Positions 9,018 through 11,012 of a stretch of DNA of 64,000 nucleotides are shown here, one piece after another. A model generated the notes under the pieces. It made no database searches. It saw only the letters and a list, made by a program, of their open reading frames with translations, and was not told the origin of the DNA. Every line of letters starts with the position of its first letter. Position 1 is the stretch's first letter. A program made the translations under genes and the position numbers. This stretch comes from Phycisphaerae bacterium (lineage in GTDB: Bacteria; Planctomycetota; Phycisphaerae; UBA1845; UTPLA1): assembly GCA_023150615.1 (NCBI GenBank), contig JAKLKO010000007.1:107016-171015 (forward strand), in the 5' to 3' direction.

Positions 9018-10241
9018 TCAACTCGCCATGGCAGCGAGGAAATCGGGATTGCTCTTGTTCTTTTCGAGTTCTCGCACGAGCGTCTCGATCTGTGCCGTCG
9101 GCGGCATCGTCAGTAATCGCCGGCGCAGGCGGTAGACCTTCTGGAGGTTGGCCGGGCCGAGCAGCAATTCCTCCTTGCGAGTGCCGCTCTGCGCCAGGTC
9201 CATCGCGGGCCAGATCCGCAGGTTCGCCAGCTCGCGCGTCAGCACCAGCTCCATGTTCCCCGTGCCCTTGAATTCCTGAAAGATGAAGTCGTCCATGCGG
9301 CTGCCGGTCTCGATCAGGACTGACGCGATGATCGTCAGGCTCCCGCCGTGCTCAATCTTCCGCGCCGCACCGAACATTGCCTTCGGCTCGATGAGCGCCC
9401 GGATGTCGAGCCCGCCGGTCATCGTGCGGCCGCTGCTGCCGATGTTCGTGTTGAATGCGCGTCCGAGCCGCGTCAGTGAATCGAGCAGGATCAGCACGTC
9501 GCGTCCGCACTCGACATAGCGCCGGGCCTTTTCGATCATCAGCCGCGCGATGCGGATGTGCCGCGGCGCGTCCTGGTCATTGCTCGAATAGACGACTTCT
9601 GGTGCGTTCCGCTCCCAGCCCGACTCCTCGGCGCACAGCGCCCGGCGCATTTCGGTGACCTCCTCCGGCCGCTCATCGACGAGCAGCATCATGAGCAGGA
9701 TTTCCGGGTGGTTTTTTATGATCGCGTGCGCGATCTGCTTGAGCAGGACGGTCTTGCCCGTCCGCGGTGGCGCGACGATCAGGCCGCGCTGGCCTTTGCC
9801 GATCGGCGTCATCAGGTCGATCACGCGCGTGGTCGTGGGACCGCCGTCCGTCTCGAGCCGGATCGGCTCGATCGGATCGATCACCGTCAGCTCCTCGATC
9901 GGCGACAATCTTGCGTAGTCGTCCGGCGACAGTCCGTTGATCGAGAGCGCTTGCTCGATCCGTTGCGCTCCCTTGTGCTTCTGCGGCGGTGCGATCCGCG
10001 CCTCGATCGACTCCCCACCGCGGAGCCGATGCTGCGCGATCAGGTTGGCCGGGACGACCGGGTCGCCGGGCTGCACGGCGTAGTTCTTCGCCTGCAAGCG
10101 GAGCACACCGTCCTGTTTCGGTCCGATCTCAAGCGTGCCGACGAGCGGCACGTTTGCCGGGTGATGTACGGCCGGGGCCGGTTGGAGATGGTGCGGTCGG
10201 CCACGATCATGGCGACGCTGGGCTGTAAATCGTCTTCTCAT
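9018..10241 (-). CDS. rho: transcription termination factor Rho
   Basis: Hexameric RNA-dependent ATPase that ends transcription. The P-loop APPRTGKT is at about residues 157-165, followed by LLVDERPEEVTEM, the EKARRYVECGRDVLILLDSL segment, the Q-loop region around SSGRTMTGGLD, and the DFIFQEFKGTGNMEL region. The primary RNA-binding cold-shock-like domain (PLVGTLEIGPKQDGVLRLQ) is present. The helical Rho_N domain seems absent: only about 30 Arg/His/Pro-rich residues precede the RNA-binding domain. At 407 residues it is slightly shorter than Escherichia coli Rho. The start at 10241 is uncertain, since no close ribosome binding site is seen. A hairpin TTCCGC/GCGGAA at 10280-10295 lies in its likely leader. 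Confidence 0.95.
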   Translation of the reverse strand: MRRRFTAQRRHDRGRPHHLQPAPAVHHPANVPLVGTLEIGPKQDGVLRLQAKNYAVQPGDPVVPANLIAQHRLRGGESIEARIAPPQKHKGAQRIEQALSINGLSPDDYARLSPIEELTVIDPIEPIRLETDGGPTTTRVIDLMTPIGKGQRGLIVAPPRTGKTVLLKQIAHAIIKNHPEILLMMLLVDERPEEVTEMRRALCAEESGWERNAPEVVYSSNDQDAPRHIRIARLMIEKARRYVECGRDVLILLDSLTRLGRAFNTNIGSSGRTMTGGLDIRALIEPKAMFGAARKIEHGGSLTIIASVLIETGSRMDDFIFQEFKGTGNMELVLTRELANLRIWPAMDLAQSGTRKEELLLGPANLQKVYRLRRRLLTMPPTAQIETLVRELEKNKSNPDFLAAMAS

Positions 10242-10336
10242 AAGGTAATAGCTGTTGTCCTTTGCGAGTTTTCTGCATATTCCGCAAGGGCGGAAAAATT
10301 GTCATAACCGCGCTTGCACGTCATTTGGCGGCGTGG

Positions 10337-10342
10337 TAGGGT
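10337..10342 (+). promoter_or_regulatory. possible -10 (TAGGGT) of a candidate small RNA
   Basis: TAGGGT at 10337-10342 lies 17 bp after TTGCAC at 10314-10319, a partial -35 match. Transcription would begin near 10349, with the first terminator 60-100 bases downstream and no gene between. Confidence 0.35.
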
Positions 10343-10348
10343 GCCGCC

Positions 10349-10448
10349 CCTCGATACGAAGATTTCTTCGGCCCGCGCAGGCCGATCACGAGCTCTTTCC
10401 CCTCCGGAAAGCACCCGTTCGCTGAATGCGGCGGGTGTTTTCTTTTTT
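10349..10448 (+). ncRNA. candidate small structured RNA (about 100 nt)
   Basis: A plus-strand segment without an open frame, lying between rho and acylphosphatase, which are both on the minus strand. It contains four successive stems: CGAAG/CTTCG (10357-10370), GGCC/GGCC (10370-10383), CTTTCC/GGAAAG (10395-10411) and CACCCG/CGGGTG (10412-10437). The last is followed by a T-tract, TTTTcTTTTTT, at 10438-10448. An intrinsic terminator facing away from any annotated gene implies a transcript of its own. It does not match 4.5S, 6S, tmRNA or RNase P RNA by eye. The 5' end is estimated from the promoter-like element and may be off by several bases. Alternatives are an antisense or attenuator role for acylphosphatase. 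Confidence 0.4.
10412..10448 (+). terminator. orphan intrinsic terminator
   Basis: CACCCG (10412-10417) pairs with CGGGTG (10432-10437) across a 14-base loop, followed by TTTTcTTTTTT. It is oriented on the plus strand, where no protein gene precedes it. On the minus strand the hairpin is followed by CTTTCC, so it is not a good terminator for acylphosphatase. Confidence 0.65.
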
Positions 10449-10475: not shown

Positions 10476-10835
10476 TCAGAAGCGAATCTCAAATCCGCGA
10501 AACTCGCCCGTCGCTGGGGACGCTGTCTCGTGAACGTCTCGGATGGACGCGCCGAACGTATCGCGGAGCCGGCGGACCAGCCGGTCGATCTCGTCCGGCG
10601 GACCTTCGACGACGGTTTCGACGCGGCCGTCGGCCAGGTTTCGCACGTATCCGGCGACCGGCAGTGTACGGGCGACGTTGCAGGTCGTATACCGGAAGCC
10701 GACGCCCTGCACGCGTCCGGAGAACAGGATCGTCCGGCGGGTGCGGGCGTCTCGATAGTTGTCAGCGGCTGGATGATCGGTCACCGAATATCCGTTTGTG
10801 TCATCGTGCTGCGCCGTGCATCGACCGCGGTCCAT
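10476..10835 (-). CDS. acyP: acylphosphatase
   Basis: Small enzyme that hydrolyses acyl phosphates. The catalytic loop GRVQGVGFRYT supplies the phosphate-binding Arg, and GYVRNLADGRVETVVEG contains the catalytic Asn. The C-terminal helix (PPDEIDRLVRRLRDTFG) and final strand FRGFEIRF complete the fold. About 30 poorly conserved residues precede the core, so the true start may lie downstream of 10835, near the RRTILFSG strand. A TAGAAT -10 box lies on the minus strand at 10878-10873. The gene is unlinked to other metabolic genes here. Confidence 0.9.
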   Translation of the reverse strand: MDRGRCTAQHDDTNGYSVTDHPAADNYRDARTRRTILFSGRVQGVGFRYTTCNVARTLPVAGYVRNLADGRVETVVEGPPDEIDRLVRRLRDTFGASIRDVHETASPATGEFRGFEIRF

Positions 10836-10907: not shown

Positions 10908-11012
10908 ATGTACAAGAAGCGACGACTGGCCGTCCGCAAGCACCGCAAGCGAATGCTCCGTCTGAAGGCCAAGGCCCGGGCACGGCGGACCTCGGCCGCG
11001 TCCAAGAAGTAA
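10908..11012 (+). CDS. 34-residue basic ribosome-associated protein (AURKAIP1/COX24 type)
   Basis: The tiny protein MYKKRRLAVRKHRKRMLRLK, then AKARARRTSAASKK. The KKRR...HRKRMLRLK pattern fits the AURKAIP1/COX24 domain, which includes mitochondrial mS38 and the small bacterial subunit protein bS22. It is therefore probably a structural protein of the small ribosomal subunit, bound to rRNA through its Arg/Lys residues. AGGAGA at 10895-10900 supports the ATG at 10908. It has its own promoter-like element and ends 24 bp before the convergent hsp20 gene. Confidence 0.8.
   Translation: MYKKRRLAVRKHRKRMLRLKAKARARRTSAASKK

Follow-up and report, generated by a model that had tools for sequence, protein, structure and literature searches.

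The locus described here lies between two minus-strand genes of the window (the whole stretch of 64,000 nucleotides that was analysed): rho (9018-10241), an ORF of 407 amino acids with Rho sequence, and acyP (10476-10835), an ORF of 119 amino acids for an acylphosphatase. Both are outside the element and on the strand assigned to them by an earlier note on this DNA, and the strong plus-strand terminator of that note is also present and is preceded by no plus-strand gene. Its stem-loop spans 10407-10442, longer than the 10412-10437 claimed, with G10407-G10417 in the 5′ arm pairing with C10432-C10442 in the 3′ arm, and it runs into a T-tract at 10443-10448; the stem is marked out by pairing and compensatory changes, and the T-run is conserved in alignment. 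Upstream on the same strand are a TTGCAC −35 element (10314-10319), a 17-bp spacer and a TAGGGT −10 element (10337-10342), just where the earlier note had placed them. RNA polymerase would start from TTGCAC-N17-TAGGGT at about 10349, 7 nt past the −10 element (a start that we infer), and stop in the T-tract at 10448, giving a putative small RNA of about 98-100 nt. This RNA would consist of a short 5′ hairpin (TCGGCC/GGCCGA, 10368-10385; present in the predicted fold, with weak energy support), an unpaired run of pyrimidines with CCCCUCCGG at its end (pyrimidine tract plus seed, the CTCTTTCCCCTCCGG region, 10394-10407), and the terminator hairpin. About 53 nt separate TAGGGT from the polypyrimidine tract, and the next plus-strand gene candidate is 460 nt downstream of the RNA, beyond a minus-strand gene. 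Also on the plus strand, at 10908-11012, is a very basic 34-amino-acid ORF (MYKKRRLAVRKHRKRMLRLKAKARARRTSAASKK) with AGGAG upstream, which we take to resemble AURKAIP1/COX24-type or bS22-like small ribosomal proteins.

Using the intergenic region as a DNA query against 60 relatives, we found matches in 41 of 61 genomes, at 1-4 places each and essentially only through window positions 10394-10448; the 22-mer CTCTTTCCCCTCCGGAAAGCAC was often exact among them, and the element's own genome has three exact matches to the 17-mer CTTTCCCCTCCGGAAAG and none to its reversed control. The collected copies that end in a terminator fall into two subtypes: 86 are type A, in which GGCTTC or a similar sequence precedes the tract, and 21, the window copy among them, are type B, with GAGCT or similar. 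Pattern-scan matches that bore names came mostly from Phycisphaerae or Planctomycetota metagenome assemblies. A further 21 pattern matches had no terminator, and those from other phyla, which resemble ABC-ATPase coding sequence, serve as a negative control. The occurrence of a 20-mer in Bacteroidota, Clostridia and others was considered as homology and rejected as convergence, the 20-mer lying in ABC-ATPase-like coding sequence with no terminator after it. Likewise TTTCCCCTCCGGAAAGCACC is found in Bacteroidota and Clostridia (L049, L063, L076, L084, L087, L113, L116 and others) antisense to apparent ABC-ATPase coding sequence, again by convergence.

Of 114 genomes from the order, 110 contain the element according to a covariance model built on its 3′ part (R1: pyrimidine tract, CCCCUCCGG and terminator), among them 65/65 high-quality ones, with 1-9 copies each; these counts take in a few weak reverse-strand matches. 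The own genome holds three clear paralogues, at 78.7, 71.0 and 60.1 bits, the last being that of the window, whose positions 10399-10448 score 60.1 bits with R1 and 61 with R2, the window sequence being among the training rows. In a sample of the class R1 matches 68 of 150 genomes, 44 of them outside the order, and divergent copies are present in other orders of the class. In a sample of the phylum, the element was not recognised outside the class; the sole model matches were weak, lacked the seed and were set aside as generic terminators, and the phylum pattern scan gave only one further match, with 2 mismatches and no terminator.

The most conserved part of the element, absent from the earlier note, is CCCCTCCGG (10399-10407 in the window), immediately preceding the terminator and reaching its foot. 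CTCCGG is present in 145/147 copies examined across the class, and CCCCTCCGG in all but one of these; because the pattern scan had selected exact cores, we judge core conservation on the model-based set, in which CUCCGG is found in 38/40 copies. It is kept in 25 of the 27 retrieved among the 44 genomes of the class outside the order, while the stem sequence varies with compensation. Most stems of the order read GGAAAGCACC/GGUGCUUUC; those elsewhere in the class read GGAAAACAUC/GAUGUUUUC, GGAAGACACC/GGUGUCUUC, GGAGAGCACC/GGUGCCCUC or GGUAGGCGAGC/GCUCGCCUAC. Across 49 diverse copies 98.1% of cells are paired and 9/12 pairs have changes on both sides, the compensatory changes for which the earlier note had proposed to look; the covariation score of the terminator stem is 0.433, against at most 0.115 with the partners slid. 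Fitting that alignment to the model favours the structure, but a within-order MAFFT alignment gives the same picture. Thus CCCCUCCGG does not vary, whereas the terminator stem has undergone compensatory substitutions. A CCCCUCCGG stretch directly 5′ of, or overlapping, a terminator stem characterises the family, and the window copy has it.

The predicted fold of the 135-nt stretch has an energy of −55.1 kcal/mol, where shuffled sequences give −45.8 ± 3.7 (z −2.5; 3/200 shuffles as good), and this excess comes from the terminator, since the 5′ half alone reaches only z −0.6 (type B mean z −0.48). Of the stems proposed in the earlier note, that of the terminator is upheld by covariation, whereas the three upstream are individually no better than chance; as energy-supported elements, upstream stems were rejected, being weak everywhere by folding energy. 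The 5′ half of the window copy is unlike that of other type B copies, and counterparts of its 5′ hairpin occur at about the same place (GGCU/AGCC in the orthologous copy L002, CGCC/GGCG in other type B copies). The CCCCUCC of the window RNA is predicted to be unpaired, with a probability of 0.77-0.99.

The promoter is also kept in position. TTGC, 2 nt, 17 nt and TA occur in this order in 14/20 type B copies, 76-103 nt (mostly 81-86) before the TTTCC tract, against a rough estimate by chance of about one in twenty; the window promoter belongs here, starting at −82 relative to that tract, and its TAGGGT matches in spacing and position the hexamers of other type B copies (TAAGGT, TAATAA and the like). 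That of L002 reads TTGCGG-N17-TATACT. Type A, the larger subtype, instead combines an upstream GGAGG(G) with a sigma28-like promoter: GCCGATA is found upstream of 34/86 copies (1.2 expected) and also of 9/40 copies from other orders (0.4 expected); in both sets (T)AAAG lies some 17 nt further upstream. These promoters resemble the E. coli sigma28 consensus, TAAAGTTT-n11-GCCGATAA, with a spacer two bases longer (TAAA-N17 vs N15; PMC2859248). In type A copies such as L039, L059, L069 and L130, the sigma28-like GAAAG...[C/T]CGATA is followed by a 5′ region of ~110 nt before the seed, and some copies have TATAAT about 25 nt beyond this promoter, so a tandem promoter is possible. Copies from other families of the class (L197, L198, L199, L200, L201, L205, L207) are minimal: between a GCCGATAA-type box and the terminator they have nothing but a short leader and CUCCCCUCCGG. 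Most of them face a convergent secA-like gene or adjoin a conserved 190-amino-acid protein. For copies from other orders an RNA of ~65-70 nt would be expected. We found no sigma28-type promoter in the window copy, whose promoter is sigma70-like.

FliA/WhiG-type sigma factors score above cut-off in 40/41 relatives. The own genome has two (G000:C11:86690-87355 and G000:C23:6349-7017), as do most relatives searched, where both are strong; the second scores about 190 bits and may control another regulon. Flagellin genes are present in 15/15 relatives, some with GAAAGT...GGCCCGATAG in their upstream regions.

Terminators are common, the weak model matches outside the class are plain terminators, and many type A copies are 200-600 nt past a same-strand gene such as that for class II ribonucleotide reductase; the element might thus be no more than a conserved intrinsic terminator that ends antisense or read-through transcripts and yields no RNA itself. 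We consider this unlikely: CCCCUCC, the most invariant part, is outside the stem, a promoter is conserved upstream of type B, GCCGATA promoters occur upstream of type A and other class copies, and the window copy has no preceding plus-strand gene. A structured plus-strand RNA of about 100 nt, the candidate put forward in the earlier note, fits all of the data, conservation being decisive.

The genomic neighbours of the copies, whose names were read from protein sequences without database searches, vary. Class II ribonucleotide reductase precedes type A copies at 55 loci (with rpsP-trmD-rplS following at 25), and other type A copies adjoin a radical-SAM gene; most type B copies come after an EF-G-like gene, and the neighbours in other families are secA, plsC or mnmE. 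This variety suggests that the RNA is an independent unit found in several places. The window copy and that of one relative (L002/L125, in G010) both have acyP (54% identity) and hsp20 nearby, but rho had no match in the 1.5 kb on the other side of this orthologous copy, nor near other copies; the adjacency to rho is not conserved, and the acyP side has an orthologue in one relative. A lack of conservation in relatives was among the outcomes that the earlier note would have taken as refuting its proposal. Because the element is conserved, the proposal is not refuted on that count: the 3′ half and the promoter are kept, while the upstream stems and the rho neighbourhood are not.

The 25 type A copies ahead of rpsP-trmD-rplS on the same strand invite a cis-acting explanation, in which the element would be an attenuator or riboswitch-like leader. 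CUUUCC/GGAAAG, closing a CCUCC loop, would then form an antiterminator in competition with the terminator; by sequence the two hairpins are mutually exclusive. Many copies, including that of the window, nevertheless have no same-strand gene close downstream, and unlike the terminator the proposed antiterminator is not maintained by compensation across the class, one pair being broken in 20/48 sequences and the variation being mostly one-sided. We therefore rejected that hairpin and regard a leader function as very improbable.

We read the upstream GGAGG(G) of type A as a lid on the seed. At 12-80 nt upstream, 55/84 type A copies have a 6-mer that is the complement of part of the seed (15 expected), and types B (0/20) and C (5/40) stay within chance; in type A the complement shifts register (CGGAGG, GAGGG, GAGGGG) with complementarity kept. 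A coding explanation was rejected, as the plus-strand ORFs over the element are chance ORFs and the type A GGAGG has no start codon at a fixed distance after it. Both the enriched complement and this lack of a start codon are what a seed acting through base pairing would predict.

Our preferred reading, to which we give a probability of about 0.7, is that the locus is a free-standing gene for a ~98-nt trans-acting small RNA with an anti-Shine-Dalgarno seed, of a previously undescribed family. The invariant CCCCUCCGG stretch suggests that the RNA probably switches mRNAs off by covering ribosome-binding sites: its unpaired CCCCUCC would pair with the GGAGG(GG) ribosome-binding sites of target mRNAs, block initiation of translation and so repress these targets without Hfq. 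Using the PF17209 profile, we detected no Hfq in the own genome, where control profiles matched; in Firmicutes, home of C-rich small RNAs, Hfq has no global role (PMC8216469). In the own genome CGGAGGGG followed by ATG occurs 12 times, against once for the reversed pattern, and the ORFs downstream of CGGAGGGG-N-ATG formed no coherent target set. Against this reading, so short a seed would match many mRNAs, which makes specificity hard to account for, and the 5′ half of the window copy differs from other type B copies.

Alternatively the RNA might bind a protein or the ribosome rather than mRNAs, as a decoy for the 16S anti-Shine-Dalgarno or a sponge for an RNA-binding protein; CCCCUCCGG resembles the 16S core CCUCC, several copies per genome would suit a decoy, and the missing Hfq would agree with it. 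We hold this to be quite unlikely, as the complementary GGAGG(G) lid of type A argues for pairing and no protein partner is known. A class-wide, multi-copy circuit can also be sketched, though we think it doubtful: open RNAs with a free CCCCUCCGG seed, such as that of the window, would act beside lidded RNAs, their own seed masked by GGAGG(G), that could sponge them, and many members would be driven by a FliA/WhiG-type sigma factor and so tie translation control to motility or cell state without detectable Hfq.

Trans-acting small RNAs of Planctomycetota are almost undescribed, and a 2022 survey gave 8 small RNA families for the whole PVC group (PMC9029176). A family that is nearly order-wide, keeps its seed invariant, has a terminator that covaries and in many copies carries a sigma28-like promoter offers an entry point to post-transcriptional control, in bacteria of which the genome examined has no detectable Hfq. 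Rfam at gathering score gave no match in the window, in line with the earlier view that this is not 4.5S, 6S, tmRNA or RNase P RNA, nor, apart from tRNAs, in 33 other loci; a permissive search returned for the region itself only RF02837 anti-hemB, a chance match (12.6 bits vs a gathering score of 49.5; E 1.9). The Rfam models for RoxS/RsaE/FsrA did not match the region, and our literature search found no paper on a CCCCUCCGG-terminator RNA element.

Among known systems, the closest in kind are RoxS/RsaE, FsrA and CsfG of Firmicutes, which use an unpaired C-rich region to base-pair with the ribosome-binding sites of their targets and seem not to need Hfq (PMC8216469, PMC10433868). The RNA proposed here is likewise short, with a C-rich stretch predicted to be unpaired and complementary to GGAGG, but it differs from them in sequence, phylum and genes, its seed abuts the terminator, and it has no Rfam match; the type A lid recalls RosA, the G-rich sponge RNA of Firmicutes. 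The sigma28-type promoters of many type A and class copies are shared with sigma28-dependent small RNAs (UhpU, MotR, FliX and FlgO of E. coli; FlmR/CJnc170 of Campylobacter), whereas the window copy has its sigma70-like promoter. Campylobacter FlmE/CJnc230 has the same order of stem-loop, single-stranded anti-Shine-Dalgarno stretch and stem-loop (PMC11187230), although its motif is CCUU, it is RpoN-dependent and downstream of flgE, and the two have no sequence relationship. The family is thus new, while its kind, the C-rich anti-Shine-Dalgarno small RNA, is already known.
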